Shown here one piece after another: positions 12,591-38,689 of a stretch of 64,000 bases of DNA. The notes beneath the pieces were generated by a model that was given only the letters and a program-made list of their open reading frames with translations, did no database searches and had not been told where the DNA came from. Source of the DNA: Cephalotus follicularis (lineage: Eukaryota; Streptophyta; Magnoliopsida; Oxalidales; Cephalotaceae); NCBI GenBank assembly GCA_001972305.1, contig BDDD01000047.1, positions 344,607 through 408,606 on the forward strand, written 5' to 3'. Position numbers and translations under genes: made by a program. Numbering within the stretch: the first letter of the stretch is position 1; each line of letters starts with the position of its first letter.

Positions 12591-12720
12591 AGGGTCCTCC
12601 CAATATGTGGGGTCCACGTAATGTATATGGGTCCTCCCAACATATGGGGTCCACGCATCGTATCGGTCCTCCCACAATAGTGGGGTCCACGTATTGGTCC
12701 TCCCACAATAGTGGGGTAAG
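12591..12720. repeat. E2 LTR tandem repeat, short allele
   Basis: About four copies of a 33-38 base unit built on 'ggtcctcccacaatagtggggtccacg'. The matching array in the other LTR (41345-41602) has more copies. Confidence 0.8.
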
Positions 12721-13474
12721 CTCTTTTTTATGGTCCATAATCACAATGTGGTGTAAACTGTGGTCTAACATTCATGACGGAAATGAAAGTCAGGAATGGG
12801 TCATCTCTATAGCCTCATACAGTACAATCAATAATCCATCCCGTAGTTGTGACCCAAAATCATGTATGCTTTTAAGTAATAGGGACCATTTGTAAAGGAT
12901 CTCATGGACCCACATCTGTCAAACCATTTAGAATCATTTCCCTAGTCATAAGTCATATTTCATATCCATGAAACATTTCTGTAGCCATAGGCTAATTTCC
13001 ATATCCATAAGCCCTTTCCATAGTAATCTCTAACCATATCCATGTCCATACGTTATCATATCCATGGCCTTCGTAATCATATTCATCCATGATCGTATGA
13101 TCCATTCCATAACGATCCACATCTATGTCGGTCCTTAACTATGCCATTCATCTAATAACAATCAAGAGGTTAGCTAGATATATACACTGTCCCATACCAA
13201 CATATATAAGTAGTTAATCACATACCACTTTCAATTCATAACCTTGAAAATCATTCCAAGACATATATGAGTTACCCTCGGCCGTTTGGGCTCGAGGTAG
13301 AAGAGAAACATACCTCGGCCTCTTGGGCACGAGGTAGCATAGAAACATTGCATAACAATACTATTTCGTATACTCGTACCGTCCCATACCGGCTTATACG
13401 AATGGGATCAGGGCAACAGCCATCTAAGCATGTACCATCGGAACATATGTATACCTACCTGTTAACGGTTGATC

Positions 13475-13477
13475 TTG
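13475..13477. other. CACTA target-site duplication, left (TTG)
   Basis: It matches 27912-27914. The uninterrupted E2 LTR at about 41696-41705 shows 'gcttgcgag' at this point. Confidence 0.9.
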
Positions 13478-13780
13478 CACTACTAGAAATAGGGGATTTA
13501 GCGACCGCCATTTTTGGTGACCGCTTTACCGACCGCCTAAGCGATCGGTAAAAGTCCTATGCAAAAACAATGGCTTCTTACCCATCGCCGACCGCAATAC
13601 CTTCATGCCGACCATCAAAAGCGCTCGGTAATTAAATAATTACAAATATTCGCCGACCGCAATACATGCATGCCGACCATCAAAAGCGGTCGGGAATTAA
13701 GTTATTACGAATCTTATTATTGGGTCATTTAGGCACCGTTTTTTTAATTACCGACCGCTTTTGCGGTCGGTAATTCCTAT
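13478..13780 (+). repeat. CACTA 5' terminal inverted repeat and subterminal motifs
   Basis: The terminal repeat is followed by repeated (C)CGACCGC motifs in both orientations, including imperfect palindromes such as 'gaccgcttttgcggtcggt' (13754-13772). Such subterminal arrays bind the TNP1/TNPA protein in characterised En/Spm elements. Confidence 0.88.
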
Positions 13781-14073
13781 TAGTTTGAATTTGTACTTAT
13801 CTCCTATCAAAGACTCTCCACTCTTCACCGTTTATATCCTATCAAAGACTCTTGTTCTCTCTGTCCCATTCCTCTTTCATAACAGTTCTCCCAAACGGAC
13901 ACAGCACACATCGTTCCTCTCGCTCGCTCTCTACCTTGTCTGCCTCTCTTGTTCTTTGTCATCACCGGTACCGACGACGCCAACATCCCACCTGCTAGCT
14001 CAACATCCCCCAATATGTCTCTCTCCCTCGCAGCAACCAACCACCAACAACCGGCGTCGGTGGCAGCGGCAAC
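13781..14073 (+). promoter_or_regulatory. Possible CACTA leader exon
   Basis: A pyrimidine-rich stretch (ctcgctcgctctctacc and similar) ends at 'ggcaacag' followed by gtaatt, a plausible splice donor at 14074. By position it could be the non-coding first exon of the transposase transcript. No direct evidence of transcription is visible. Confidence 0.35.
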
Positions 14074-14389
14074 AGGTAATTTTTTCTTAGTTCAATATGA
14101 ACAACAATTCAACAGATTATAATTTTTGGTTTTTTTTTATAGATTTGTTAGGGTTTTTTTGGGGGTTTATTTAGGGGTTAGAGTGTTAGGAGAGATTTTT
14201 ATATGTATGCGTGTATAGCAGTTGTTGAGATTTTTATATGATTTTGAATGATTGAATACCTGTTACGAAGCAATCGGTGATGAGATCTTCCTCATCAGGA
14301 CCAATACAACCAGCTGTTAATGCCTATATAATTAATATGACAAAATATAATTGTGTTCCCTAATAACCTGTAATGAGATTGAAAAGAAA

Positions 14390-15025
14390 AAAAAAAGATT
14401 AGGAGAAAGGGAGATGTATAGTAGAGGCATGATGAGATCTATTATTAGAATATGAGATAGTGCAAGAGTACATGAACATCAAATTTCTGCTATTAATTCT
14501 TGTTTTTAAAAAAAATATGCTATTAATTTTCAATTTGGCACAAGCCAAGGTAAGCAACAAATTCTCTGATTCAAACTCTAAACCTATGTGAGAACTGGGT
14601 ATTCCTTTGGGAGAGAAGACCTAAGGTTTGGGCGTTGGGTGTGGTTGGGGTTGACGGCATAATGCCGCTTGTTGCGATATGGATCTTGGTAGATTAGGTT
14701 ACTCTGCCTTCTTACCACTTGGATAGAGTTTTTCTCTAGTCTAGTCTTATGGTAATATAGTTTCCCTGCATGGTTAACAAGGGGATCTAGCATGCTTGGC
14801 TTTTTGTACACAACATGCTAGTTTTTGTAACTTTTTGCTTTGTCTATAATACTAAATCAGTTACAAAAAAAAAAAAGAGTACATGAACAGAATTGAAGAT
14901 GACATACGATTAGGAAAAAGCGAAGATGTATAGTAAAGGAGGATGATGAGATATATTATTAGAATATGAGATACAGATGAACAGAATAAAAGATGGCATA
15001 CGATTAGGAGAAAGAGAAACAGGTG
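14390..15025. repeat. Tandem repeat, about 95-base unit, split by a retroposon
   Basis: The unit 'gattaggagaaag..gagatgtatagta.agg..gatgagat.tattattagaatatgagata' occurs at 14395-14465 and 14907-14972 and starts again at 15001. The LINE-like insertion lies between copies one and two. Confidence 0.75.
14479..14874 (+). mobile_element. LINE-like retroposon insertion (5'-truncated)
   Basis: The segment ends in a poly(A) run (about 14865-14876) and is bounded by a 15-base duplication AAGAGTACATGAACA at 14464-14478 and 14875-14889. Long duplications and a poly(A) tail are hallmarks of target-primed reverse transcription. The 396-base body has no recognisable reverse transcriptase motif. It is therefore either a short 3' end of a LINE or a non-autonomous retroposon. 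Confidence 0.75.
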
Positions 15026-15154
15026 TTAATAAATTTATGTTTTGTGATTTGTCTTTCAGTAGGAGGAATTATCATTTAACAACAAAACAATATAACCTTT
15101 GCACGTAAAAAAAACTATTGGTCCATTATAGCGAAAACATCAATAAGTTAGCCC

Positions 15155-15262
15155 AATATAGTGAAAAAGAACATTTCCTAACCGTTATTTTAGCCGACCG
15201 CTTTGCCGACCGCTTTAGCGGTTGGTAAATGTCCTCAACTGAACACGTGTTGCTTTTCCATC
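15155..15262 (+). repeat. Internal copy of a CACTA terminal region
   Basis: The stretch around 'ccgaccgctttgccgaccgc' at 15193-15212 follows the same order of motifs as 13499-13600 and is preceded by 'agtgaaaaagaacattt', resembling a worn CACTA terminus. A second CACTACTAGAAG word occurs at 15983. This suggests an inner, older CACTA end or a terminal duplication. Confidence 0.5.
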
Positions 15263-17532
15263 GGCAACCGCATTTTTTTGAATTGCCCCTGACAATTGTC
15301 CACAATGATAACAAACCTTGACAGACACTAGCAAACTGTTTTCTCAATACAAGTCATTTAGCTTTCATTTAAAAAAAAATCCTAGCCCAGCACCCAGATT
15401 GTAGAGGTATTAGGAATCAATAACCTTACGCCAGGTCTTATATACATATCTATGAAATTATATACATATCCTCCTTCCTCTTGTATGTTCTCATATTGAG
15501 ACAGTTTTATCATCCCGGTTAGGATTCCTCAAATATCACATCACCATTCAATTACCAAGGCACCATCTGTATCAATTGCTTTAAACATTAAGAGAATCCC
15601 ATATGTTAAAAAGGGTTGTATATGGTTAGGTTATGGATATTAATGCTTGCACACATCCATGCAAGTACCAAGATATGGCACTGAGTTCTTCTCCATACAC
15701 ACGAATCCCATATTATTAGGGTTCCCTAAGTTCTTTATAGGTTTCAGCATTAACACCCATAAAGTCCTAAGGATTTTATCAAATAAAAAGCATTAGGGTT
15801 TTAAACCAACTTTTCTATATGGATATTAAAACTCACAACCCTGAATGTGTCAAACAATACCAATTATGAACATGATTGCAACAATGCAACTATAACGTGG
15901 AGAACAAGAAGCGAGAAGCAAAGAGAAAGAAATGGGTGTCTATAATATACTAATTATAAATAAGAATAAGATCATAATCTATCACTACTAGAAGTCATTG
16001 TACACTGCTTGTTTCTCAGCCTTTTTGTACTAAAGGGGACTTGCAGCCTGCAGATAAGAAGGCATTATCACCGGCTCCTGCAAATACAACTGTGCCCAAC
16101 AGTTCTCAGAAAAGGTCTCTCTCTCTCTCTCTCTCACTCTCTCTCTCTCTCTCTCTCTCGTTACATTTTTAAATCTCGATGGCAGAGGATATTCACTTAC
16201 GTGACAGTAGATGCCTTGCACGGTTCACTCTTTGATGTTCAATGGGTATTTTTATTCACTTACGTGACAGTAGTATCAGAATCATGTTTTTCAATAATGA
16301 GTATGTTACTGTTTCTTACCCATAACGTGCTTGCTATTTCCTTATCTGGATAGTTAGTGGTATTAACTATTGTCCAATGGTTTTGGTGACATATTAAAGT
16401 CCTTGGTGACAATTTCAATCATATGATTTAATTTTCTAAAGTTGATGATCTTGCTCAAATAATAATATGGATCAAATATGTTTATACTTCCCTATTAGAT
16501 CACATATTAGTTCTGCAATCGTACATAGTTAATGATCTTGCTCAAATAATGAAATGGATCAAACTTACGTGGATTGGCACTTGGAACCAAATAAAAAATT
16601 TAAATAAAGGCCTGCACTTAATTACTAGTTTTGATTAATCTCAAACATCCAATGAATGAATAATTTGACTCCTACATCGGTTAATTATCAATTAACTTAT
16701 ATATGTTTCATTAGCCTTCTCCCCTTTTCTATTTAGTGAAGTATATTTTGTTTCCCATTTGTATGTAATGGGTTTGGTGGCATATTAAAGTCCTTGGTGA
16801 GAATTTCAAACCTAATAAGATGTTTACTTGACTGAGGGCTGAGCCCATACAGACAGATATATATACATATATTTAAACTAGGAATTGAGTTTTGAACTGA
16901 AAAATTTCTTTCACAGGTTTGGCTAATTTCGTGGGAGTCCCAATTATAGATGAACCCTACCAGTTTTTCCGTAAAAAATTAAGGGATAGAATTATTTTCA
17001 AAACTTACTGATGAATATGTAATAACATATTAAATTCTATAGTTTTATTAATAAAAACAAAATCTTGTCATAGCTATATAAGAAGTAAAGAAGGGGAGTT
17101 TGATGTCCCTTTTGAACTCCTCGGCAGAACCCAATTATATTCTTCATTCTTCATGATAAGCCTTTAATTTTGAAAAATGTTAATAATTAATTCAACAAAT
17201 TGTAAAGGACAATATAGTCATTATATATTTAAAACCTAAAAAGACTCTCATGTAATGACATTTTGTGATATAGAACTCCTCCTTTGTTTTAAAAACTGAA
17301 CATAACTCATTCTTTGTTTGAAAAAGTACCTACGGTTCTTCTATTACTAATGACATTTCAAAAAAAAAGAAAAGAAAAGGAGACAGAAATCAAAAGGAAA
17401 ACACAAATATTCATTGTCCAATTGGTAAAATAGATGTAATAATATACAGAACGTGTCACGGATGTAAGTTGCATACTTGTGTCTGAATCTACTCTATTTT
17501 TTGTGACATGTCCAGTGACACGCGTAGAGAAT
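15263..17532. other. Non-coding 5' part of the CACTA element
   Basis: AT-rich sequence without a credible gene. It holds a (CT)n run at 16112-16159. A 36-base block beginning 'catattaaagtccttggtga' is repeated near 16391 and 16779. The word 'ctgagggctgagccca' occurs at 16838 and again at 26104, near the other end. Confidence 0.5.
16112..16159. repeat. (CT)n microsatellite
   Basis: A near-perfect run of CT dinucleotides, broken by one 'cactct'. Confidence 0.9.
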
Positions 17533-20500
17533 ATGTCAGGCGATCGGAGTTGGATGCGGAGACGAGTTTTGAATCACAGATTGAATCCGGAATTTGTAGA
17601 GGGTGTGAACGAGTTTTTACAGTTTGCCTTCGCAAATGAGCGTGTTTGTTTACGAGGGCAAAATAAAATTCCCTTGCAACAAATGCAAGTTATTGAAGTT
17701 TGGGACTAAGGAAGAAGTTAAGTACCATCTGTTCAGTAAGGGGTTTACCCTTGAATATACAAGGTGGGACCAACATGGAGAAATGTCTCAGAATCATAGA
17801 GTAAATAGAAACGTCATGTATGAAAGGGCTGGTCCGAGTAATCCTTGGAGGGATTTTGTTACCGATGTAGGAGGTTTTCAGTATGATCTTAATCAAGAGG
17901 ATACAAGGCCTGAAGATCCTAATCCTGCTGCACAAAAATTTTATAGTCTTCTGCGGGAGGCAGATGAGACATTAATTGGTGGTAGTGAAAAAATGACTAA
18001 CTTATCCACCATGATGCGAATATTGAAATGGAAGTCCAGATTTATGATTCCAGAGGCAGGAACAACAGAGATTTTACGAATAGAGAATAGTGTCTTACCA
18101 GAGGGTACGGTGCTTCCCAAAAATTATTACCATTTGAAGCAACATATGAAGGCCTTTGGGATTAGGTTATGAAAAAATTGATGCATGTTTGAATGATTGT
18201 GTGCTATATTACGGGGAGCACAGGTCGTTGCATGAATGTCAGACATGTAATCATCCAAGGAATAAATCATCACGTAAAAACCTTGTACCCTACAAGGTGT
18301 TGCGTTACTTTCCTCTTACATCGAGATTACAGAGACTGTTTTACTCAAACAAAACTACTGAATATATACTTTGGCATGCAAGTAGAGTCCATAATGATAT
18401 GGAGGAGGAACCTGTGATGGTGCACCATGCTGACGGTGTAGCTTGGAAGCACTTTGATCGTACCTTTCCAAAATTTCCTGCGGAAGTTGGGAATATCATA
18501 CTGGGTTTGGCTACAGATGGGTTTAGTCCATTTGGGGTTAGCAGTAAGACCTACTCTTGTTGGTCAGTCTTTGTTTTTCAGTACAATATCCCGCCTTGGA
18601 TGTGTATGATGAAACCTTTCATGTTTTGGACATTGATCATAGAGGGCCCAAGAGGCCCTGGGAAGGATATTGATGTGTATTTACGGCCACTCATTGACGA
18701 GTTACAGATGTTATGGGAAAATGGGGTTGAGACCTATGATGCATCATGTAAGGAAAACTTTAATATGAAGGCAGCATTACTGTGGACAATTAACGACTTC
18801 CCGACATATGGGATGTTGTCTGGATGGAGCACACACGGTGGTTTTGCTTGCCCTTGTTGCATGCAAGGCACGAAGGGTTTATGGTTGACTAATGGTGGAA
18901 AACATTCATGGTTTGACAGTCATCGTAAGTTCTTGCCTCTAGATCATCCATTCAGGGGTGCAAGAAAGGGTTCTTGAAGGGGAGACGTGAAAGAAATGTT
19001 GGTGTGGAACGGTTGCAGGGTGATCAAATTGCATCCCAATTGTCACAGTTTCATCAAGTTCAATTTGGCAAAGGCGTAGATTCGCAGAAGTTGCCTGGAT
19101 ATGGAACTCATCACAACTAGACAAAACTTAGTATATTTTTTGAGCTTCCATATCGGAGTGCATTACTTATCCGTCACAAATTGGATGTCATGCACATTGA
19201 GAAAAATTTCTTCGACAATTTGTTCAACACAATCATGGATGTGCCGTCAAAAACAAAAGACAATTTGAAATCTCGTGCAGACCTGGTACAATTGGACATT
19301 AGACGTGATTTACACCCTGTTACCGTGGGTGACATGCTGAGAGTGCCTAAAGCTAAGTATTGTTTGACAGGACAAGTGATTAAAAAAGTATGTGAGTGGA
19401 TGGTAGACATCAAGTTACCTGATGGCTATGTTTCAAACATTTCGCGGTGTGTCAATGCTTCTAGCTGTAAAATATCGGGTTTCAAGAGTCATGATTGTCA
19501 TGTCTTAATGCAAAGGTTGTTACCAGCAGCTTTCTGTGAGTTCTTACCTCAACATATTTCTCAAGTTGTGGCAAAAGTCAGTCAATTTTTTCGGCGTATA
19601 TGTTCAACCACAATAAGGGAATCAAATATGGCTACGCTACAGAATGATATTGTCCAGACAGTTTGTAAGCTGGAGAAGATATTTCCCCCATCTTTCTTTG
19701 ATTCTATGGAACATCTTCTCATACACTTGCCATAAGAAGTAATACTTTGTGGACCTGTACAACATGTATGGATGTATCCCATTGAAAGGTACAAATTTAT
19801 TTACGATATCATTTTTGAACCAGTAATTTAACTCTAATATATATTTGTAGTATATTGCAAGCTTAAATATATGAAATTTCTTTTTAATCACTCCTAGAGA
19901 ATTGCGTGACCTAAAGAAAAAGGTGACGAACAAAGCTCGAGTTGAAGCATCAATAGCAGAAGCATACCTCATTGAGGAACTTACGATATTTGTCGCACAT
20001 TTCTTTGACGACGACACCCCATCGAAGTTAAATTGAATTGTATGGAACTTTGATGGGGGTGAAATTCTGTCACATGGGAGATTGGCTATATTTTGTCATC
20101 CAGGTACTCCACTTGGAGATATGTCAAAAGATTATATGAGTAACGTGGACTACAAAGCTGCTTACTTGTACATACTTCTAAATTGTGAAGAAGCTGGACA
20201 ATTCGTTACGTAAGTATCTTAGCCCACTATGATAAGTTTTTATTTTTTATCCTATTAACTATATAATGCCATGTAGTGAATACGAAGAAAGTCTACGGGG
20301 TTTGAATCCATACATCACAAATGAAGCAATTGAAAGAGGGAAAGAGAAAGACTTTGTAGGGTGGTTTCAATCACGAGTAAGTATCTAGCTAGCATTGAGT
20401 GGACATTATTTTTGTCAACTGGAAATGTTTCAAGCATTTTGATCCTAATATAACCATGAATTCGCTTTTTTCCTAGATTGGCGGTGATATGACTGTGGAT

Positions 20501-21253
20501 TGATGGTTACGACAGCTAGCCTTGGGACCATATACATCAATTTGTAGTTGGTCTGGTTATGTGTGGAACGGATTTAAATTTCAGACTAGGTTTGCGTCTG
20601 CTCACCAAGTAACCCAAAATTGTGGGGTGATGATCAGGGGAAGCATATGGGATGAAAGTTGTACTAGTGACTACTACGGGTTTTTGGTTGATGTTATTCG
20701 ACTCGAATTCCATGGTAACAATAAGCGTCTTGTTTTGTTTCGATGTGACTGGATTGACCCTACAAGAAGAGGTACATGGGTGGATGAGTTTGGTATTGTC
20801 CGTGTCAATCCCTCACGGAAGCTTAAGACATACGAGCCATTTGTGTTGGCAAGTCAAGTTGTGCAGGTCTTCTATGTCCCTAGCGTGACAAACAAAAAGA
20901 AATACGAGAATTGGGTTACAGTGGTCACAACTAAGGTTAGGAGCATTTACAATGTTAAGGAATATGTTGCAGCTAATGACACCACCCCTGGACTAGACGA
21001 GGTGTTACAAGAAGATGATCTCATGCGTGCACAATTACATGATATTGGTCCTAATGATGATGAAGGTTCTCTTTGTAGAGATAGGGATGAGGAGATAGTT
21101 CCCCTACCTGATGTTGAGGCTATTGAAGAAGGATATGCAGACGAAGATCTTCTTGATGACAATGACTCAGAGACTGAGGATGAGGAGGGCATGGAATTTA
21201 ATTCATCTGATGGATCTGATGATGAGAACATGAGTGATGATGATGATCTGTGA
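17533..21253 (+). pseudogene. TNP2-type CACTA transposase, broken
   Basis: In order: an N-terminal transposase-associated domain (DRSWM, LNPEFVEGVNEFL, then PCNKC of the zinc motif), the TNP2 catalytic region (CLNDCVLYYG, HECQTC, ATDGFSPFG, GMLSGWSTHGG, CPCC, LDVMHIEKNFFDN), a DUF4218 region (LPAAFCEF, HVWMYPIER) and a DUF4216 region ending in an acidic tail (DDDDL). Likely introns are 19789-19897, 20210-20276 and 20377-20476, all GT-AG. Frameshifts fall near 17640, 18160 and 18962. In-frame stops occur at 19118, 19733, about 20033 and 20501. The protein would cut and join element ends in the nucleus. This copy cannot make it. The start was chosen because the conserved domain begins there. 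Confidence 0.9.
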
Positions 21254-21447
21254 TTTATTCTGTCATGTTAATTTGGAATTTTTGTTTTCATTATTATAAT
21301 TGTGAATAATAAATATGTATTCGTTAGCTGTTATCGAAGGCATAATTCTAAATTGGTAAATTACGTAATTCTATTTTGTACATATTTGGTATGACGTTTC
21401 TATCACCTGTCATTTTATATTAACAATTACAGATATTTTACATAGAC

Positions 21448-23613
21448 ATGGCTCGTGGAAGTCGATCTTATCGTTCTACCTCTATGAGTGGACGTGGTAG
21501 AGGTATGTCTCCTCGTGCTGATGATGGGGAGCATGGCTTCACAGGCACCACCAATGGTATGTATGTTGTTGAATTCTATTCTTCAATACAAAATTAATGA
21601 CTCAGATTTATAAGTTTACAGATATGAATTATGTTCGTATTCTTCGATAATGCACGTGCTTTATGATGTTATATAGGTCCTGAGCTAGATGGTGTTCTGA
21701 CCCAGGTGGCGGGGTCCGCCACTCCTGCATCCAGTTCAGGCAGAGTTACGGGCAGGGACCACCCCTCCACAGCCACTGCCAGTGGTTTGTTATTTTTCTT
21801 CAATATAATAGGAAAACTTGTTAAACTTATGAATATAATGGATATATAAATCTTTTCAATCACGTCACTTGGTTCACAATATCTTGTAGGTTCTCAGTCC
21901 CGCATTAGAGGATCCATTGTAGGTATTGATCTTCCGGCACAGCCGGAGGCTCGGGTGTATGTATCGATCGTTGGAGAGAGGTAGCTATACATATGGATTT
22001 AAAATTATTCTAACGATGATGAATCTCATGTGAATGTAGGAACCATAATTTTTAATTTGGTTTTGCATTGACTTTCCAATCCCTATAGTTAAATCCAAGA
22101 TTGGTGCGTTGTTTAGAAGTAGGTTGCTACAACCCTGGCACAAACACAGTTTGTGGCCTCAGGATGAGCTTGATCGGCTGTGGGAGAAGTTATGTGTAAG
22201 TCAATTGTTTAACATTTTATTTTGTCACGCTGTATACATGTAATATTCAATTGTCTGTCCCGCATTCATAGTTTGCTAACAACCTCAAATGATTTTGTAT
22301 TTGTAGGAGTTTTTTTATTTTGATTCCCCAGGTAAAGCTCGAGCAATGTTTGACCAGTACTGCAAAATTAATTACAAAAAGTGGATGTGCGACTTGAGGA
22401 ATGAGTCGAAGATGCTTGCAAAAGTATATGACCTGACAGAGGCCTGCAGGCAGTTCCCCCCAAGAATCGTTCCCCCACCAGTTTGGGAGCAACTGATGGA
22501 TATATGGTTGGATCCTGGTTGGCAGGTTACCTATTCAAGGCATAAGAACAATAGGTCTAGTGCAAGTCATCTTCCCTACACTGTAGGAAATCGCAGTATG
22601 AGCCAACGGCTGAAGGAGGCGGTACATAACCGATAACTTAATCTTTATTAATCATTTATTTCTCACTTGCTGTCCATTAACTTGAATTGTTTTTTTATTT
22701 TTTGTAGTTAGGAGAAAAGTAATGAAGACTTGGTAGATCTTTTTAATAAATTTCACACTCCCAAAGGTGCTACTGAGCCTCGTGAAGAAGTTGCTGCTTG
22801 CTTTGTAAGTTATACTTACAGTGAATTTAGTATAAAGTGAATATGATTTTATTTATGATGCAAATCTTGAGGAATAACATACATAATTTTTTTTATTGTT
22901 TCTTTGCAGAATACGTACAAAAAGCTAAAGGTGGATGCTGCAATGAGAGGAGGAGGAGAAGGGGGGCGGAGGCATCATCACAACCACCTGCGAAGGTGGT
23001 TGACTTGGACATGTGGTTGGAGACAGTGGGAAAGCCGAAGAAGGGGTTAATTCGTGGCCTTGGAAATTTTATAAATGCTAAAAAGGCAAAGAAGAAGTAT
23101 CAATCGAGCTCATCATCATGTAATGATCATCGTGTAGATAGCGGAGGTTCAGTTCATGGTGGTCCTGATCATACTGTGCCTGATGAGAGCATGGATGAGG
23201 TGGTTCAACGACATATTGGAGGACTGCGTGAGGAACTTATGGCAGCCATGAGCCCGTAGATTGCAACTATTCAGGACATGTTTGCAACGCATATGAGAGG
23301 GTCATATCCTGGAGCATCGCACAATACCCCAAATGCGACTACACACTTTGATCCTGGTGTTGGTCCGCCCTCGACTACTTGTCCTGTTATTTTGTCATCG
23401 CAGCAGACCTCATACGGTCCTCAGTTGGATCCTCCACATCTGATTACTCACCCAGCAGCTCCTCCATCGCAATTTGGTCAGCCTACCCCTTCTCGACAGC
23501 ATGCTTATCATGACCCACCTTCTCCGTACCCAGATGTTCATATGTATCGGTCACAGCATGATGATGATGATGATGAGGAGGAGGAGGAGGAGGAGGAGGA
23601 TAATGATGATTAG
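21448..23613 (+). pseudogene. TNP1/TNPA-type accessory transposase (Ptta/En/Spm family)
   Basis: Probable exons are 21448-21556 (start ATG; Arg/Gly/Ser-rich MARGSRSYRSTSMSGRGRG), 21677-21784, 21890-21980, 22089-22195, 22307 to about 22620, 22708-22804 and 22910-23613, mostly with clear GT-AG borders. The core reads HSLWPQDELDRLWEKL, ARAMFDQYCKINYKKWM, PPPVWEQLMDIWL and SMSQRLKEAV, the plant transposase family often found beside TNP2. A likely frameshift near 22955 and a TAG at 23257 precede a Pro-rich tail and an Asp/Glu run (23564-23610). Family knowledge says this protein binds subterminal repeats and helps TNP2. The exon model is by eye. Confidence 0.78.
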
Positions 23614-23873
23614 GATCACGATGATGCGCGCTATTATACTGATGATTAGATGTGAACATTCGTCAAAGTTTTTTTGCTGTTACATTGCAGGGGAAATTGA
23701 ATAAGATACTGTTTTCATGCTGTCCTTTTCTTGTGACAGCATTTATGAATTTTGATATTGGAATTTCATATTTGTTCTTATTGTTTGGTTGCCTTTTTGC
23801 TATGTTTCTTCGGAATTTAAAAGTAGATATCCTTTTAAGTGTTTAATAATGGTGCTATACCCACTTCTATTAC

Positions 23874-23909
<36 letters not shown>

Positions 23910-24540
23910 GCCTATTGATATTTATCTAACATTTTTTTGAGACCTGGTGAAAATCATGTAGTAATGGTTGTTTCTAAATTTTTCTTGAATATATTGTTTT
24001 GCAGATATGCATTGCCACGCGGTCTGGTAAAGCAGCTTGGGAGAGGCATTTGGTTTTATTTCTTCCTTTCATTTCAAAACTTGTATTTCAACTGGAAAGA
24101 AATTGGAGGTCCCATCTTCTTCAGGTATGACTTATGCTTTGAAGACTGATTGATTTACAAGATTGTTAGCAGCATTTTCTATGATAATTTTGATCATCTT
24201 CAACACATTTTCAAATCTCTGATAAAAAATTAACGAATAACCTTTTTTATAAAAAAAACACAATAAAGTGTCCAAAAGTCCCAATTATTTCCTATTTTTA
24301 GAAAGAAATAGCATTCTAGTCTTGCTTGCACATGATGATGTGGGTTAACATTGGTCTTATAGTTGTGTAATTATGAAAGGCTTGCTCTCTTCTAGAATTT
24401 TTTTGACAAATGAATTTCTGGGTTAAGTTAGAAAGATGGACCCTAGTTTTTGGCGTTTATTTGTTGCTAAGATCATAAAGGTTGCAATTACGTGGGTGTC
24501 TTTTTCTGGTTCCAAAAAAGTAGATATATCCTTCGAAACC
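23614..24540. other. Spacer before the captured fragments
   Basis: No recognised gene. A segment at about 24006-24125 is bounded by 'ttgcag' and 'gtatgac', looks exon-like and is open on the + strand. I cannot identify it and it may be chance. The last 150 bases could be 5' flanking sequence captured with the MYB fragment. Confidence 0.35.
23877..23906. repeat. (CA)n microsatellite
   Basis: About 15 uninterrupted CA units downstream of the TNP1-type gene. Confidence 0.95.
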
Positions 24541-24790
24541 ATGGACCGAGGACAAAGGAAACGGAAAAAAAAGCACCATTTTTGAAACTGAAGGTCAGTG
24601 TTCTACATATATTAATTTCTCTAGGTCCTTTATGTTTTATCCCATGTAATGGTTTGTTTCTGTTCATGTTTATATATAACGTCTCATTTGTTTTATTGGC
24701 AGAGGTTAGTAGTATTGAATGGGAGTTCATCAAGATGACTGAACAAGAAGAAGATCTCATCTATAGAATGTATAAACTTGTTGGAGGTAG
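24541..24790 (+). pseudogene. Captured R3-MYB fragment, CAPRICE/TRIPTYCHON type
   Basis: Exon 1 (24541-24593) starts ATG and encodes a basic MDRGQRKRKKK leader, then hits TGA. A GT-AG intron (24594-24702) follows. Exon 2 (24703-24790) encodes EVSSIEWEFIKMTEQEEDLI and then YRMYKLVGGR, ending at a donor (gtaagc). This is the first half of the single R3 repeat, with the start of the bHLH-binding signature D-L-x2-R-x3-L. The remaining exon (WxLIAGRIPGR and the C-terminus) is absent. Full-length proteins of about 80-110 residues repress trichome formation or promote root-hair fate. This is a gene piece carried by the CACTA element, with its intron kept, so it was copied from genomic DNA. Confidence 0.87.
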
Positions 24791-24852
24791 GTAAGCTGCA
24801 GACCCAATAGACTTATATATTTTGAGACCCAACAAACTGGTTGGTGATAACT

Positions 24853-24875
24853 TGTTGGAGATAGGTAAGCTGCAA
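24853..24875 (+). repeat. Local duplicate of the MYB exon 2 end
   Basis: 'cttgttggagataggtaag' repeats 'cttgttggaggtaggtaag' of 24777-24795, including the splice donor, about 76 bases downstream. It is a small tandem duplication after capture. Confidence 0.7.
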
Positions 24876-25463
24876 TTCTGAGTCTTCACTAAATTTGGTC
24901 CCACAATCAGATTGTGTGGCCCATTTAATCAACAAAGGACAGATATCACTATGCTATGTCGTAGAGGGGGTCTCAGTACGCTTTCTGTAAGATCCCCTCT
25001 TTGAACTATTTTATTTTCCCCAATCTTGAGATAGCCTAGAGGACATTTTCTTAATTTGTGCATGCATGTGCACTTATTATGTTGCTGACATGCTACTGTT
25101 TCAATTGTCTACTTGATGTAGATTATTTAATTTACACATTCTCATGCGAGATTTTGTGATTTAGGTTCAATATAGTTCTCATATTGTATTAGTGACCATG
25201 TTTCTCCATTGGAATAATTTCCATCACAATCAGGAAGATGACATGCTGTAGCCTGAGTCCAAGGTAATCTAACTTAGAAGATTCAGTCGCAGTAGTTGCT
25301 GAGACAGTAAAATGAGTACATTGATTGCGTAATCAAATACTTATTTAAATTTCCGTTCAATTATCTTACTGTACATTGGAAATGTTGGGTACTTTATAAT
25401 TTTACAATAGAAGAAAAAAACGATCATCTTGATGGATAAGACTTGTGCTTATTTTGGAAGTAG

Positions 25464-26052
25464 GTGAAGGTGCTTAAGGCTACCATCGGTCAACTACCTA
25501 AACGAAGTGCACAGTATTGCACTGATGCATGTTTGAAGAGATATTTGGAAGCTCGAAGCTGGAATGTAGACAAATCAAAGAAAATGCTGGAAGAGACACT
25601 TAAAATGGAGATCCACCTATAAGCCTGACGAAATGCATTGGGTAAGTTAAATTTTTATATTCTTGCATATTTACTTACAACAACAAATTTCTAATAAAAC
25701 GATGCTCTAAATAGTCCTTCCTTCAGTAGTTAGTTCAATGATAGGCCCTTCTCAATCTGTCAGATTGGTGATCTATTTTCTTGATGATCTTGGTAAATAT
25801 GACTTTCATTGACCATTTAAATGATCTTTTTTTCCAGCGTCAAGTTGTTGTTGAAGGTGAGACTGGAAAAGTATATAGAGTGGGTTTTCATGTCCGACAT
25901 GGTAGAACTGTTCTTATTTTGAGACCTGGAATGCAGGTGGGGAACGTATTGAGAATCAGTATTTTACCTATATAACAAATATGTTTTGTTATCACCAGTT
26001 CTGAAAATTGACACAAACATCTCAGAACACAACTTCATTGGACAATCAGAAT
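25464..26052 (+). pseudogene. Captured SEC14-like gene fragment
   Basis: Three exon pieces keep GT-AG introns. Exon 25464-25641 encodes TIGQLPKRSAQYCTDACLKR, YLEARSWNVDKSKKML, and after a shift KWRSTYKPDEMHW, the CRAL-TRIO N-terminal helices. Exon 25838-25936 encodes EGETGKVYRVGFHVRHGRTV and LILRPGMQ, the start of the lipid-binding domain. From 26026 a partial exon reads NTTSLDNQ and then decays. One extra A in 'taaaatgg' (25601-25608) shifts the first exon. SEC14 proteins carry phosphatidylinositol or other lipids between membranes. Most of the lipid-binding fold is missing. The assignment is strong from two consecutive exons in the right order. Confidence 0.85.
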
Positions 26053-26392
26053 TCATCATTAATTGAGATTAGAATGATATGATTTAGATTTAGGTGTGGT
26101 CTGCTGAGGGCTGAGCCCAAATATACCAACTGTGTTTTTCTTTCAGGGGGCATAGTCCGATAAACGAATACATCATGCCCGATTTTTGGGAGAATTTAAG
26201 AGTTAGAATTAATTTTTGTTGATCTTTCTACTTGCTTGACTTTGATTTAAATGTTTATATTTATAACACTTCTTGGGATAATTTGAGTTGATCCTCCAAG
26301 CATTTTGTAAGTTTTCTTTTGTGAAATAGGTATTTGTTTTGGAGTGTTAAGCTTTCCTTTCTAACGCCTTTTTCTTGTCTTCTTGATGCTAG

Positions 26393-26745
26393 ATCAATCG
26401 CGATCATGGGGCAACTCAGATGCAAAGAATGCAGAGCCAAATACAGCAATTGCAAGCTGAGCTTCTTTTTTATCGTGGTAATGCTGGAGCACCATTTGAT
26501 GAACTTCAGGTATATCAATTGTGAGAAGTTGAGCATATGCTTATTAGTTATTGAATTTGGTTGCTTACTTAGCCTTGGTTTTCTAGATCCTCAAACACAA
26601 AGTATATTTACTTGAAGCACGCAATGCAGAGGTACTGCGTGAGCTCCAAGGACACAGAGTCACCTGTGATGGTTTCTCAAACCATGTTCCGGATGTTAAG
26701 GTTCTGTTTGCTGGTAGTGTTGAGTCAGATGATATTTCAAGTTAG
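26393..26745 (+). pseudogene. Captured kinesin-4 coiled-coil fragment
   Basis: Exon 26393-26509 encodes MQSQIQQLQAELLFYRG and APFDELQ. After a GT-AG intron (26510-26586), exon 26587-26745 encodes ILKHKVYLLEARNAEVLREL and QGHRVTCDGFSNH, ending at TAG 26743-26745. The 'LQAELLFYRG...PFDELQILK.K...LEA.N.EL.REL' run is characteristic of the stalk of plant kinesin-4 (KIN-4, FRA1-related) proteins. The motor domain is absent. Unlike the other two fragments, the joined exons stay open to the stop. It could encode roughly 90 residues of coiled coil if spliced into an element transcript. Subfamily placement is less certain than kinesin-4 itself. Confidence 0.75.
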
Positions 26746-27239
26746 ATAGGAGAAGAAATACTCTATTATTGCTTGAAATTGGTTATTTAGATCAGTAAAA
26801 TTGTGAAACCCTCATCTTTTGTATAAGAGACTTGAACAAAAGGAGGTTAATTACTCTCTAGATTACAAACGCTAGTGTCATGTATATATTGCAGCCTAAT
26901 TGTACACAAATTGCTATAAATCTGTTGACATATTGTAGATTTTAGGATGTAAATTTTGAGTGGATCATATTTCTTATCATTATATCAAAAAATTGTATAA
27001 CAAGTGGTATAAGCTTGTTGAAAAGACTCATTCCTGTCAATTTTTTTTTCTAATGAATTGGCAATTTTTCTTTTATACTCTTGCTCACGTACATGCAATC
27101 TTTGGATCTGTACATGGGAATCAAATAAAATGTTAATTGCAAATCATCGTATTGGTTGCTTGTCCACAAAACAATCTAACTTATAATAGACCAAAAGTTA
27201 CTGGTCACAACAATCATGGTAGCAAAAATTATATAATTC
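26746..27239. other. Spacer between kinesin fragment and CACTA 3' end
   Basis: AT-rich, no gene recognised. It may include the 3' part of a captured intron. Confidence 0.4.
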
Positions 27240-27911
27240 TCATAATCTAAATTACCGACCGCTTCAAGCTTTCCCGACCGCCCAGAACGGTCGGGAAGCA
27301 ATTATAAAATTCATTTAATATAAAAAAAGATTGATAATTGTTGACCGCTTATATAATCCCCGACCGCCATAGCGGTCGGGGGTCCTTATTCAATTCATTT
27401 AATTTCAAAAAAGATTGATAATTGCCGACCGCTTACATATTCCCAGACCGCCAGAGCGTTCGGGAAGTCCTTATCAAATTAATTTAATTTAAAAATTATT
27501 GCTAATTGCCGACCGCTAAAATATTTACCGACCGCTTTTTGTGGTCAGGGAACCATTACAAAACTAATTTACTTTCAAAAATTATGGTTAATTCCCGACC
27601 GCTAATTTATTTACCGACCGTTTATAGCGGTCGGCAAACCTTACAAAATAAAATTAATTTCACAAATTTCTTTTATTTCTCGACCACTTACAACATTCGC
27701 CGACCGCCGGAGCGGTCGGTAAACCCTCATAAAATTTAATTTCTGGTTTTGACGGTCGGCAAATGGAGAAGGCGGTCGGGAAACGGTCGGGCTATAATCC
27801 GCGACCCAATTATAAGCGGCAGCCATTGCGGTCGGGGAAAACTTTGGCCGACCGCTTTCAAGGTTTTGCCAACCGCTTTGGCGGTCGGTAAATGCTCTTT
27901 TTCTAGTAGTG
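27240..27911 (-). repeat. CACTA 3' subterminal motifs and terminal inverted repeat
   Basis: There is a longer array than at the 5' end: roughly 60-base units, each with a GACCGC...GCGGTCGG pair separated by AT-rich spacer, ending in the terminal repeat. The 5'/3' asymmetry is typical of CACTA elements. Confidence 0.88.
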
Positions 27912-27914
27912 TTG
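27912..27914. other. CACTA target-site duplication, right (TTG)
   Basis: It is the partner of 13475-13477. Confidence 0.9.
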
Positions 27915-28079
27915 CGAGTCGTGAGGACTTGCAGCAGAATCCATGAACTACCACCTCCTCTAAGCTTCACTCGCTGTCACGAGCACAACTCCATCTTTTG
28001 TCCACGGAGTTCTCTTTCTCTCCTCGTATCACTGCAATAACCACCACACATTCTGTTACGACTTACACAAATGTAGCAA

Positions 28080-28540
28080 TTACACATTGTCATCACCGGA
28101 GTTCCGACCAATTTCCGGCCAACACATCGAAACTCCAGCCACGCCATAAACAGGCTCTAAATTGGCCAATCTATGCACTGGTAGTCGTGACTCGTCGTGA
28201 ATCGCAGTCACAGCCAGCAGTGAGTCAACTCACTGAGTCAACTCGCCGGTCAACCACAACTTCGGTCACCACCCGAAATCACCACACAATCATCAATTCT
28301 ATGCGTCACTGCCAAATCGCCGTGACTCGCCGTAGAAAGGGCTGTCACGGCCGGCCAGTGAGTTCAACTCACTGAGTTGACTCGCCGGTCGTCCACAACT
28401 CCAGTCACCACCATAAAACACATCGCAATCATCATATCAACACATCCATGCCCTTAACTCACCGAGACTCGGTGCCAAATGCGTGGTCAAAGGCGATAGT
28501 GAGTTGACTTCACTGAGTCAACTCGTCAGTAGGAATCCGG
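28080..28540. repeat. E2 LTR module with three diverged ~150-base units
   Basis: Each unit contains 'agtgagt.aactcactgagt' followed by 'caactcgccggtc' and 'ccacaact.cggtcacca'. The module recurs in the other E2 LTR at about 41870-42330. A related form lies in the copia C1 LTR at 53850-54260. Confidence 0.7.
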
Positions 28541-28918
28541 CCGTTTCCGGCCGAATGGCACCAAACCAGCCACTGAAATAGGTGTAGCCGGCCTCCTAGG
28601 TGAAGACTTGACCTTCCTGCGACGCTAACCGGTGGTGGAACGCACGGCAGAGGCGTGACAGAGGGGGTCTGGTGAAGAAGAAAGAAAGAGAAAGGAGGAA
28701 GAGAGAGTTACCATCGGTTGAGGCGAGCACCGCACGTCCTCCGGCCGTCGTCGCTTTGCCCGGCGCCGTTCCTTCTCTCCAGCACCATCTCTCCCGCTCT
28801 CTCTCGCTTTCTCTCCCACACTCTGTCTTCTCTTTCTTCTTAGCGCAAGTGATTCGCCTGATGGCTTTTTTTTTTCAAATATACAAACCTATATATATAT
28901 ATATATTGGGGGCTTACA

Positions 28919-31084: not shown

Positions 31085-32408
31085 TGCTGTCATGCCTCAA
31101 AACGCGAAGGTGAACCCCTACAATTCGACGCGTGATAAATATCATCCGTTCAGTCATTTCATATCATATCCATACCCAATAAGTGCTATAAGTATATAAA
31201 GCTTTAAATAAAGTCAAACAACATCAGCGGAATAATCAATTGGAATAAAAACTAACTCTTAAAATCTCCCGAAATTTCGGCATGAAGTATTCGTTTATCG
31301 GACTAAACCCCCTGTAAAGAAAAACTCAATTTATATCCCCACACTCCCAAAGGAGGAATCAACAGTTTATATACATATATGGGCTCAACCCTCAGAACCA
31401 AAACTTAACTCATAATTATATCATTCACATACGGAGGATAATTACTCAACTCCTCAACATAATGGGCCTGTCCATATGCAATACATCAACACATAAATCA
31501 AGCACTGCCACATGCCGGCAGGTCAATACAGAAGGAAAACATGTCTCTTACATAACATTTGTACATTTACATTAATCACATTTATGTAAGACAGGTCGGA
31601 GTAATGTAGATCCTTACTCTGTGATTTAGCCCGGCTGATCATTGCTGCACGCCACCTGGACCTGAACTTGACCCATTACAGTGCAATACAATGCAATGGG
31701 TCAACAACCTGAAGGTTCTGTAGGATATTCATATGCAATGAACATATGGAAGTGCAGCAGATATGTGTAAAATAAGTGAGATATATCCATGACAAGAGAT
31801 GCATGAATGCCAATTCATAGCAATGTAACTCATAATATAAAGGTCATGCACAATAACCTAGAGACCAATAGAACATGTAATATACCATTCATATACGACC
31901 GTCCCATACCAGTGTATAGGAATGAGATCAAATCAATCGTCACTCTTTGACAAGCCAATGCCAGACCCCAAAGGTTCTAGCCCACTACAACCATTCCGCC
32001 AGATTCATATACGCTAGTGATCTACCATTCGTATACAACCGTCCCATACCGGCGTATAAGAATAGGATCCACAACAACCATCTAGGGATACATACCATGG
32101 TCCTATCGTAACCATAGTATAGCCATACCATAACAATCAGGACCATCACGATCCATAACGATACGATCCATAACCATATCGTATCCATCCATAGCCATAA
32201 TCGTTGCCCTTATCATTCAGCGTCCATATCATTCCAAAATCCTTTCAAGCGTATACAAGCTCTTCTCAGCTTCCTCTGCTGAGGTAACAGACTAGGCGCT
32301 CTTGGCGACCTAGGCAGAAGCCCTTATTCCATTGGCAGATTAGAGTAGGATCCGTAAGTAGAACAAGGAAGAGAAGATGGACATTCTCTAAAATTGGTCT
32401 CTCTAGCT

Positions 32409-33534
32409 AAAGCTTTATGAACTATTTTGAGCACTGTGATTTCTGAGTTTGAATTGTTATATCACCTTTCTTGAAGTGCATTGTAGTTTAATGTAAATCA
32501 TTACTTTACACAAAAATGTATGTTTTGAGAAAATATATATTTCGAACCGTGAAAATGACTTCCAAAAACACCGTGAACCGAGTTTTGTGATATTGAGAAC
32601 CGAGAACCGCGACATCGTGAAAATGAGCTTGCTTTCAAGTATTTTGTTTTATAAATTACTTGGAAAACTGTTTTGAGCATCGAGATGACTGTGATTGTGA
32701 TTGAGCTTGACTGTGATTGCTGATGGTGATTGTGATTGTGACCGTACTAGTTGCGTGGCGGAGATGCCGGCGATGACTAGTGGTCGGGTCGACTCAGGGG
32801 CCAGGAGTTGGCTGGGTGACTCACTGCATCATGACCTGCTTCGTGCCATCCGGAGTCGGGACCGATGACGGGATCTACGACGTTGGGGCCAGGAGATGGC
32901 GACGCTCTTCGTACCTATCGAGATTTGTGTAGTCCTTTTTTGGACGTGATTGTGAACCGTGAAATGTGATATCGTGTTATTGTGCATCGTAATACTGTGA
33001 CATCGTGGTTTGGCATGTGTATATCTATATTTATATATATGCATCGAGATATAGTATGTACTGCGTCATGTTGCATCCATATCTTGGTTTTGTTGATCTT
33101 ATGTCGCTTTTATGACTTTGGCCGAGTGAGGACAAAGGCTAACCCCCTACTGTTACAGATTGATGCTGCGTTTTGGATATCGCCGGGCATGGCTGTATCA
33201 GACAGTGAAGTGATGGAGTTTTATGCTTTAAGTGTTTTGTAAAGCAGTGTGTAAACATGTTATACTTTGGTTCATGTGCTAATGTTTAACGAGGTTATTG
33301 TATCGACTTTTGGATCATGCTTTGTTTGTGGGCTTTTTAAACAATGCTTTACTGTGGATGTTGTGGGGATAATGTGGCATGGGACGCATGGTTCCGTTTG
33401 CTATCAGCTTATAGTTAAATGCTTCCTCAAGGTTGATGTTTAATCAAAAGTTTTATGTTTTATCGTTCTCTATATAAGCTGGATGTTTGTTAAATTGCCA
33501 TGTTGTATGTTGTTAATGCAAGCGGGGTGTGACA
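32409..33534 (+). mobile_element. E5 5' LTR, missing its first ~1.2 kb
   Basis: It matches 39876-40998 of the 3' LTR closely and ends GGGGTGTGACA. The part equivalent to 38690-39875 is absent. The same breakpoint removes 227 bases of the E2 LTR, pointing to one deletion across the junction. Confidence 0.88.
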
Positions 33535-33538
33535 GCAG

Positions 33539-33550
33539 TGGTATCAGAGC
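33539..33550 (+). other. E5 primer-binding site (tRNA-Met type)
   Basis: TGGTATCAGAGC, four bases after the LTR end. Confidence 0.92.
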
Positions 33551-33644
33551 ATAAATCAATTTATATGCTTAGCTTGGATACTATCCTTGGAAATTAACTT
33601 GTTTTCCTCAAGAGGACTAATGACATCTTTCTTATGGGAACAAG

Positions 33645-34790
33645 ATGGACGGTCGGAGAAGGCGCGGAAGGCGTAGGACCGTGAATGAGGATGTTCCCGA
33701 GGATGTGAATCCTGGGGGAGAACCGATGAATGATGTTCCACAGGGGGCAGCACCTAATGTGAGGGATCCGATGGACCGCATCGCTGACTACATCCAGCAG
33801 CAGATAGCTGCTAATCAGCAACAGATGGCCGCTAATGCAGCGAATATGGAGGAGATGCAGAGATTGTATGTTCAAGCTCAGCCTCAGCCGATGGCTCCAG
33901 CTCAGGGTGTGCACGATGATGGTAGCCAGTTTGGCAGAAACCTGGAGAGGTTCATGAGACAGAATCCACCCAGTTTTAGGGGATAGTTGGATGCGACCGC
34001 CGCTGAGCGGTGGCTACAGGATCTTGAGAAGATCTTCGAGGTGATGGAGTGTACTGACAGGCAGAAACTGAGATTTGATGTGTACTGATTATGGGGTGAG
34101 GCCACTCACTGGTGGGAGATGGTTAAAGCTAAATGGGAGGATACTGGAGTTGTAGGCACCTGGGAGGGGTTCCAGGAGGAGTTTCTGGTACCGTATGTGC
34201 CACGCATAGAGCGTGAGAGGAGAGAGACGCAGTTCTTGGAGCTACGTCAGGGGGAGATGACTGTGGCCGAGTACCAGGCCAGGTTTGTTGAGCTTGCCAG
34301 ACACTCAGCGTATTTGGTGGCAGATGAGGAAAAGAAGGTTCGGAGATTCCTGAGGGGCTTACGACCGGATCTTCGGTCTCGGATCAGAGTGATGGAGCTT
34401 GGTACCTTTGTGGAGGTTACCTAGAAAGCAAGGCTGTTGGAGAGTGTGTTGAATGAAGACAAGGCTGAGAGGGCCCGAGAACAGCAGAGCAGGCAGACAC
34501 AGAATCAGTCTAGACCAGCATCATCAAAGTGGCAGGGCAGTGGTTCCCCGTCGAAGTCCCTGAAGAACAGGTCTCAGCAGACAGCTTCACAGGGTGCTCG
34601 TAGTCAAGGGAGTGATGCAAGGACTGGGGTTTGCTTTCACTGTGGTCATGCAGGTCACCAGCAGAAAGACTGTTGGGCAAAGAAAAGGTTGTGTTTAAGG
34701 TGTGGCACAGCGGGGCATTCCGTGAGGGATTGCCCGAGAGGAACGACGACAGTATCCACTGGGCCAGCTAGTGGTAGTGCTCCTGCAGCA
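33645..34790 (+). pseudogene. E5 gag
   Basis: It begins MDGRRRRGRRR. A Gln/Ala/Met-rich stretch (IADYIQQQIAANQQQMAANA) follows, then the retrotransposon gag domain (AAERWLQDLEKIFEVMECT, ATHWWEMVKAKWEDTG, MTVAEYQARFVELAR, FLRGLRPDLRSRI). Two zinc knuckles, C-x2-C-x4-H-x4-C, come next (CFHCGHAGHQQKDC and CLRCGTAGHSVRDC, about 34631-34730). Three in-frame stops interrupt one continuous frame: TAG 33984, TGA 34086 and TAG 34422. At least two look like single C-to-T changes of Gln or Arg codons. Gag packages the RNA in cytoplasmic particles. The start ATG lies about 110 bases after the LTR, as usual. Confidence 0.9.
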
Positions 34791-35399
34791 GAACCGTCAC
34801 AACGAAGAGATATCGGCAAAGGCATAGTGAAAGGTAGAGTTTTCGTTCTTACCCAGATAGAGGTTCCAGAGTCTACTTCTGTTGTGGGAGGTACTGTGTA
34901 TGTTTATGGTTTCTCTGCCAGAGCTTTGATGGATTCAGGAGTGTCACATTCTTTCATTGCTTCCCGTTTTGCATCATGTTTGGATGTGTCTCCTGTTTGC
35001 ATGCATTTTGTTCTTGATGTGAGCACACCTTATGGAGGTTCTTTGTGTGCAGACTCGGTGTACTGAGGTTGTGAGCTTTCTGTTGCAGGTGTTTTGTTGT
35101 GTGCAGACTTGATCGTGCTACCCCTTTATGACTTTGATGTTATCTTTGGTATGGACTGGTTGTCAGCCTACCGTGCACAGCTGTACTGTTACAACAAGGT
35201 GGTGGATCTTTGCTTGCCTGATGGGACTACTTTTCAGTTCCAGGGAGACAGAGGATTCTCGTTGCCGATTATATCTTTTATTCGTGCATCAAGGTATCTG
35301 GAAAAAGGGTGCGAGGGATTCCTTATGCATGTGGTTGATAAAAGGAAGGTGAAATGAAAGAGTCTGGAGGAGGTTCCTGTTGTAAGTGAGTCTCCGGAC
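34791..35399 (+). pseudogene. E5 aspartic protease
   Basis: In the same frame as gag it carries ARALMDSGVSHSFIASRFA, with the active-site D-S-G. After a TGA at 35064 comes DLIVLPLYDFDVIFGMDWLS, the conserved block downstream of the protease. A second TGA lies at 35355. It is fused with gag and pol in one frame, as in Tekay/Del-type chromoviruses. Confidence 0.88.
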
Positions 35400-36360
35400 G
35401 TGTTCCCTCCAGATCTAGTGTCCTTACCACCGAAGAGGAGTATGGAGTTTTTAATCGATCTGGTACCGGGTACGGCTCCTGTTTCTAAGGCGCCTTACCG
35501 TATGGCTGCTACGGAGTTGCGAGAGTTGAAGTTGCAGTTGCAAGACTTGATCGATAAGGGTTTTGTGCAACCCGGTGTTTCTCCGTGGGGTGCACCAGTG
35601 CTTTTTGTGAAGAAGAAGGATGGGTCGATGAGGCTTTGCATCGACTATAGGATGTTGAATAAGGTGACTACCAAGAACAAATATCCTCTTCCACATATCG
35701 AGGATTTGTTTGACCAGCTGCAAGGGTCGAGGGTGTTTTCCAAACTCGATTTGAAGTTGGGTTATCACCAGCTGAGGGTGAAGGAAGGAGATGTAGAGAA
35801 GACTGACTGCCGAATAAGGTATGGTCACTATGAGTTCTTGGTAATGCCTTTTGGTGTCACCAATGCACCAGCAGCATTCATGTCCCTAATGAACGACGTG
35901 TTCCGACCGTTTCTCGATCAGTTTGTGGTGGTGTTTAGAGATGATATACTTGTGTTCTCAAGGAGTGAGAAAGAGCACGTCTATCATCTGAGTTTAGTTT
36001 TGCAGACTCTCCGAGAGCATAAGTTGTATGCTAAGTTTGGCAAGTGTGAGTTCTGGCTCGACCATGTGATCTTCCTGGGTCACATTGTGTCTGGAGAGGG
36101 CTTGGCGGTAGATCCGTCGAAGAGCGAGGTTTGTACGAGATTGGCCGCGCCCGAGAAATGTGACGGAGGTACGTAGTTTCCTTGGCTTGGCAGGGTACTA
36201 CCGGTGGTTCATCCAGAACTTCTCGAGGATAGTTGTACCTTTGACAAGGCTGACTCAGAAGAAGACCTTGTTTGTTTGGGATGCTGATTGTGAAGTTAGT
36301 TTCTGTGATCTGAAGGATCGGCTGATCTCCGCTCCTGTTATGGCATTACCCGAGGGTAAT
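35400..36360 (+). pseudogene. E5 reverse transcriptase
   Basis: The domain reads [86 protein letters not shown] and [14 protein letters not shown]. The polymerase box reads [11 protein letters not shown]: the Asp pair is kept, but the residue before it is Arg instead of the usual Ile or Val. A one-base shift near 36140 moves the frame before [18 protein letters not shown]. The domain copies element RNA into DNA within particles. The shift and the unusual Arg make this copy unlikely to work. Confidence 0.92.
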
Positions 36361-37018
36361 GAGGGCTTTACAGTGTACAGTGATGCTTCAGGCAAGGGCC
36401 TGGGTTGCGTGTTGATGCAACGAGGCAGGGTGATTGCTTATGCTTCGAGGAAGCTGAAGCCGTATGAGGAGAACTATCTGACTCATGATCTCGAGCTGCC
36501 AGCTATCGTTTTTGCGCTTCAGAAATGGAGGCATTACTTATATGGAGCACAGTTTGGGATCTTTACCGATCACAAGAGCCTGAAGTACTTGTTCAGTCAG
36601 GATGATCTGAATATGAGGCAGCGTCATTGGGTTGAGTTCTTTAATTACTACGACTGCAGTATTCAGTACCATCCAGGGAAGGCGAACGTTGTCGCGGATG
36701 CCCTAAGCCGAAAAGCCATGGTTGTCAATGCCATGGTGTCTCAGTGGAAATTGTTGGAGGACTTCCATAAATGGTCGCCTTATTGCAGGGCACCGGGGAT
36801 CCTTGTTGTGAGTGTTCGTGCACAGCCAGCGCTTTTGGACCACATAAAGGATGTACAACTGCATGATCCTGAGTTGCTTGAGATTCGGGAGAATTTGGGC
36901 CCAGAGTCTGAGTTTCAGTTGCATGCTGATGGTGTTATGAGGTTTAAAGGACGAGTGTGCATTCCTGGTGATGCTTTGATAAGGGGTGAGTTATTGAATG
37001 CAGCACATAAGTCTCAGT
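36361..37018 (+). pseudogene. E5 RNase H and linker to integrase
   Basis: All catalytic signatures are present: [15 protein letters not shown] (Asp), [13 protein letters not shown] (Glu) and [12 protein letters not shown] (Asp), ending with [11 protein letters not shown] linker of about 100 residues leads to the start of the integrase zinc-binding motif (AAHKSQYS), where the Cassandra LTR is inserted. Within this stretch the frame is open and the domain could fold. Confidence 0.92.
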
Positions 37019-37023
37019 ATAGT

Positions 37024-37409: not shown

Positions 37410-37414
37410 ACAGT

Positions 37415-38644: not shown

Positions 38645-38675
38645 TACCGCCTTTATTTCGGGGATGAAATTCCTC

Positions 38676-38689
38676 GAAGGAGGGGTGGA
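38676..38689 (+). other. E5 polypurine tract
   Basis: GAAGGAGGGGTGGA, immediately followed by the LTR start TGTAACGGCC. Confidence 0.88.

Follow-up and report, generated by a model that had tools for sequence, protein, structure and literature searches.

CACTA transposons are able to take up pieces of host genes, and capture of this kind has been described in soybean, morning glory, grapevine and wheat. Tgm-Express1, a CACTA element from soybean, contains five unrelated host-gene fragments that are spliced into chimeric transcripts (PMC1947982), and two copies of Cactavine-5 from grapevine carry part of a gene on the 3' side of the transposase (PMC2528002). The Tpn1 family of Ipomoea nil, CACTA elements whose copies have 3-bp TSDs with one exception, likewise captures host genic regions (PMC5105172), and for wheat 3B a total of 140 capture events by CACTA elements, with 145 genes involved, has been counted (PMC4290129). 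How such elements grow has been addressed by a neighbouring-insertion model, which holds that neighbouring insertions fuse after their inner TIRs have been deleted or mutated (PMC8903248). The element described here, from Cephalotus follicularis, is a clear example of multi-gene capture by CACTA.

The window, i.e. the whole stretch of 64,000 nucleotides that was analysed, is plant DNA rich in retroelements and contains a CACTA element of 14,434 bp on the plus strand (13478..27911) with perfect 12-bp TIRs and the TSD TTG. The left end starts with CACTACTAGAAA at 13478 and the exact reverse complement ends at 27911; these are the only 12/12 matches among the 11 sites in the window that resemble the TIR with up to two mismatches. 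The longer terminal arm comprises 33 nt with 88% complementarity, and TTG flanks the element on both sides, the junctions reading ...GATCTTG / element / TTGCGAGTC.... The outer left end (13478..13790, +) consists of the TIR and CGACCGC-type subterminal repeats, the right end (27250..27911, +) of tandem subterminal repeats of about 84 bp with CGACCGC motifs and the TIR, and 24 of the 25 occurrences of CGACCGC/GCGGTCG in the window lie inside the element. Moreover, the window holds a paralogous copy of the target without the insert, in which the site, at ~41,700, carries a single TTG (...GGTTGAGC TTG CGAGTC...). The right flank is 88.8% identical to this empty-site copy along ~1 kb; the match of the left flank is limited to its last 25 bases (24/25 identical), further out the copy lacks several hundred bases of the left flank, and then similarity resumes. 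Thus, based on the TIRs, the TSD and the partial paralogous empty site, the 14.4 kb are one insertion unit. TIRs starting with CACTA, a 3-bp TSD, subterminal repeats at both ends and a tnp2/TnpD transposase place this unit in the CACTA superfamily.

The element carries transposase genes. The tnp2-type transposase (17533..19732, +) comprises Transpos_assoc (Pfam E 1.8e-11), Transposase_21 (E 1.3e-74) and the start of DUF4218 (E 1.1e-13) in open pieces that lie in different frames, and an open stretch with DUF4216 (20504..21250, +; E 3.1e-19) forms the 3' part of the gene. Together these four domains are a usual set for a CACTA transposase. The gene is broken by frame changes and stops. It is followed by a second (TNP1/TnpA-type) gene region (21450..23613, +; start placed by eye), which looks TNP1-like, has an in-frame stop at 23257 and gives a match to Transposase_24 that is weak and below the Pfam cut-off (E 0.094). 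Among 120 of the 572 relatives of the transposase the closest by identity is the database protein P0134, with 88% identity in a stretch of 137 residues and 90% in one of 173, and others in this set score higher as they cover more of the query. The source name of P0134 includes a Pkinase_Tyr domain that is absent from its listed Pfam domains, and related copies may have had contact with other host genes.

The element may be compared with other gene-capturing elements. The element contains host-gene pieces between its TIRs and works like a Pack-CACTA element, but is not filed as one because of its strong transposase match, as the Pack-TYPE class of packFinder excludes such matches (PMC8903248). 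With Tpn1 it shares the CACTA type, the 3-bp TSD and captured host genic sequence, whereas non-autonomous Tpn1 members have host sequence in place of their interior and few copies bear transposase genes (PMC5105172). CACTA-like elements of Chenopodium combine transposase and captured gene fragments as well, although these fragments are located 5' of the first ORF (PMC8978399), and not 3' of the transposase genes as here.

Three host-gene pieces, all on the plus strand, are found at one position within 2.2 kb, 3' of the broken tnp2-type transposase. One of them is a SEC14/CRAL-TRIO piece, which an added exon 1 now extends to the start codon (25198..25263, +; MFLHWNNFHHNQ...). This exon contains an in-frame stop and was compared by eye with two database proteins, P0003 (MFRHWNN) and P0007. 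Exon 2 (25464..25641, +) encodes CRAL_TRIO_N (Pfam E 7.7e-8) with one frameshift and is followed by exon 3 (25838..25936, +). All 59 candidate proteins match exons 2 and 3 at E<=1, the best being a random slug protein 5-like protein from Trifolium (72% identical along the entire query, E 4.1e-38). At these SEC14 borders the database proteins P0004 (after ...KPGLQ) and P0007 (after ...ICW) cease to resemble their homologues, just as expected of gene models that run on into an intron, which may be taken as independent, indirect support for the borders.

The R3-MYB (CPC-like) piece consists of exon 1 with an ATG (24541..24593, +) and exon 2 (24703..24790, +; EVSSIEWEF...KLVGGR), which covers the first part of the R3 repeat. 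The frame of the ATG has stops and does not continue into exon 2; a different frame joins exon 2. Searched against the PDB, exon 2 hits CPC first (E 7.1e-5, 16/21 residues identical) and two WER chains next (E 0.0052 and 0.011), and Pfam returned no match for MYB pieces of 30 and 48 residues even at E<=10. At the border of exon 2 and intron 2 a small local duplication is found, i.e. a 26-nt copy (24849..24874, +; 96%) of 24775-24800, which is compatible with slippage during repair.

The third piece, from a kinesin gene that is putatively of the kinesin-4 subfamily, comprises two exons, 26393..26509 (+; INRD...DELQ) and 26587..26745 (+; ILKHK...), the latter with a likely donor site after 26700. 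The frame of 26393-26509 and 26587-26700 is open up to a stop ending at 26745. One of three candidate proteins, a kinesin-domain protein (PF00225) from Hibiscus, is 64% identical to the piece in a match spanning 86% of the query (E 7.4e-20), in a search that admitted proteins of up to 1.75 times the query length, full-length kinesins thus being outside its range. The PDB search with the kinesin piece gave no meaningful match. This null result, the single protein behind the kinesin piece and the shortness of a MYB piece without Pfam match are what might speak for chance or low-complexity resemblance. Yet three independent searches yielded E-values of 4.1e-38, 7.4e-20 and 7.1e-5 and the exons are ordered as in genes, so that chance has practically no probability left; for SEC14 and kinesin it is refuted by the E-values. 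The earlier note had described R3-MYB, SEC14 and kinesin fragments on the plus strand inside a CACTA element with clean termini and TSD, an observation that is confirmed here.

Among the closest counterparts is Tgm-Express1, whose CACTA ends likewise surround fragments of several unrelated host genes, introns as well as exons (PMC1947982). The soybean element has 5.7 kb, five fragments and demonstrated chimeric transcripts, whereas the element here has 14.4 kb, broken transposase genes and three identified fragments, and is known from sequence. The view of the earlier note that three donors in one CACTA element are unusual was therefore overstated. In Cactavine-5, too, a CACTA element contains its captured piece on the downstream side of the transposase gene; a single donor, a PPR gene, is reported there in opposite orientation, in contrast to three donors here, all on the plus strand (PMC2528002). 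Judged by titles or passages, no CACTA element combining kinesin and SEC14 fragments was found among the papers retrieved. The element thus described adds an example, with well-defined boundaries, of capture from several donors by a CACTA element with (broken) transposase genes, and two details are worth recording: the three donors in an element that still bears transposase genes and, as discussed below, its inner left end.

As fragments of Tgm-Express1 are spliced into chimeric exons (PMC1947982), one may ask if the chimeric stretch could be an expressed new gene. If spliced in silico, SEC14 exon 3 and both kinesin exons, all in phase 0, join in frame; the resulting open frame has 127 codons, beginning with an M close to where SEC14 exon 2 ends and running to the stop that ends at 26745. 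However, this agreement concerns the one inter-gene junction, is a coincidence expected in one of three cases and is not evidence of a gene, and the frame ends by reading past the likely kinesin donor site to the stop. Moreover, there are lesions upstream, as SEC14 exon 1 has its in-frame stop, MYB exon 1 and SEC14 exon 2 have disrupted frames, and MYB exon 2 joined in silico to SEC14 exon 2 runs into an immediate stop. From the sequence an expressed new gene appears very improbable. By now the pieces appear to be decaying passengers which, if the element is transcribed, could serve as cassette exons or as sources of small RNAs.

As to the mode of capture, all placed intron borders carry the expected signals (GT at 7/7 donors, AG at 5/5 acceptors), a count that is not independent since the borders were placed using these signals. 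As the pieces have kept their introns, capture at the DNA level, introns included, is the best reading of the sequence. We consider it highly probable that a CACTA element acquired three host-gene segments as DNA and then moved as one unit. A once-mobile CACTA (En/Spm) element would have taken up parts of three plant genes as genomic DNA, at a place flanked by its transposase genes on one side and its right end on the other, the pieces being copied as DNA together with their introns, and the loaded element would then have jumped as one unit into a copy of a repeat, giving rise to the 3-bp target duplication. Two entry routes may be envisaged. The segments may have been incorporated as filler DNA during interrupted repair of the gap left by excision, or the element may have fused with neighbouring copies that later lost their inner ends; we infer that one of these two is the most likely way of entry.

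Alternatively, the three pieces might be separate, nested insertions or might have entered together. No clear remnant of a CACTA end was found in 23614-24500, 24880-25200, 25960-26400 and 26745-27240, searched with both ends in both orientations; these four intervals around the pieces make up 16 of 36 comparisons, with 60 shuffles each. In one of the 16 a stretch of 16 bases at 25117-25132 scored above all shuffles (25 versus a maximum of 23, z 3.8), a weak excess that was taken as chance. Among 25 of 30 pairs of inverted repeats in 23600-27250 none was a convincing flanking pair, so that neither comparison, by CACTA ends or by inverted repeats, recognised own termini around each piece. A separate insertion of the pieces is thus not recognised within the limits of these searches, and chance matches are very unlikely by the E-values; the capture claimed in the earlier note is not refuted by either result. 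It fits with capture by one CACTA insertion that TIRs, TSD and empty site enclose three unrelated, intron-containing pieces. The interpretation of the earlier note is supported in part, as its repeated capture by one lineage and its chimeric, potentially transcribed unit are conjectural.

A joint entry, i.e. one capture and not three, would require that another mobile element (a Helitron or MULE) or a rearranged locus had pre-assembled the pieces, which then entered the CACTA element as a single block. The location of three pieces in 2.2 kb, in one orientation and at one position, is in line with such an origin, as is the repeat DNA between the SEC14 and kinesin pieces (26121..26277, +), which is common to the minus strand of 31175-31336 (77.6%) and 10789-10924 (73.7%) by sequence similarity. 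Against it, no flanking termini were recognised in 23600-27250 by the inverted-repeat comparison, Helitron ends being short. Such a block is a possibility to be kept in mind, although we regard it as rather unlikely.

On the left side the element has a degenerate second (inner) left end (15163..15272, +), identified by local alignment. It is identical to the outer left end, counted from base 9 of the latter, at 54/74 positions, ungapped and in register. The local score of 59 compares with a mean of 18.4 and a maximum of 25 in 60 shuffles; comparison with other parts of the terminal arrays gives scores of 37, 31, 38 and 31, and comparison with the right end in forward reading gives 45, these lower-scoring matches spanning ~26-30 bases of shared motif as compared to ~92 for the left end. 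At its start the inner left end agrees with the right TIR region in 13/14 bases, and in the whole 64 kb the right-end 14-mer is found with at most one mismatch only in the inner left end and in the right end itself. CACTA proper is lost. Alternatively, part of the end may have been duplicated, or an insertion may have split a subterminal array. Since the inner left end fits a prediction of the neighbouring-insertion model, as set out for Pack-TYPE/Pack-CACTA elements (PMC8903248), the sequence suggests that the left side may have grown by fusion of neighbouring copies. The fusion route of growth would accordingly have left its trace on the left side, with no clear CACTA-end remnant in the four intervals beside the captured genes. 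The inner left end is a new clue to how such elements grow, and it provides a concrete structure for testing the neighbouring-insertion model. One may go further and speculate on stepwise growth, in which the decayed inner left end records a fusion with a neighbour, three donors came in on the right side of an element that bears a transposase, and an exon-gathering lineage that still encodes transposase yields a spliced SEC14-kinesin product, but such a scenario, taken as a whole, is quite improbable.

Other sites resemble the ends as well. At 26708, beside the kinesin piece, a 10/12 match to the right TIR was taken as chance, as 11 sites with up to two mismatches are seen in the window and ~5 expected under equal base use. 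The site CACTACTAGAAG (15983-15994) differs from the element's TIR by one mismatch and has the same orientation; no subterminal similarity follows it (z 2.8 and 2.9, which the best shuffle equals or exceeds), and it is possibly due to chance or the trace of another CACTA family.

Additional exon-like segments are present within the element. Just 3' of the second transposase-type gene an open segment of 120 nt with AG/GT borders (24005..24124, +) is a possible fourth donor, for which Pfam and PDB searches found no family. In the left arm, 16020-16114 (PFCTKGDLQPADKKALSPAPANTTVPNSSQK) is likewise open, exon-like and bordered by AG/GT; it is possibly a further captured exon, and Pfam and PDB gave nothing useful for it. 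Pfam searches with 20 of the 54 open segments of at least 48 codons returned only two weak matches, both below the family cut-offs, and this sample assigned no identity to the stretches 13.8-15.15, 15.3-17.5 and 23.6-24.5 kb. In 13400-28000 no Rfam family matched at the gathering threshold.

The surroundings of the element are repetitive. The stretches 10699-28918 and 31088-42716 are two copies of one repeat (K 0.063-0.075), the first being split by the CACTA element, while a Ty3/gypsy-type element appears to split the second and has LTRs of ~1.1 kb (32408-33534 and 39872-40998, K 0.044). The K of 0.063-0.075 bounds the age of the CACTA insertion only if the flanking repeats are sister LTRs. 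Direct repeats at 42915-44093 and 47493-48691 are 95.7% identical and are probably LTRs around a copia-type coding sequence (RVT_2 at 46579-47550). A 2-kb direct repeat with 87.5% identity is located at 4302-6319 and 49157-51192.
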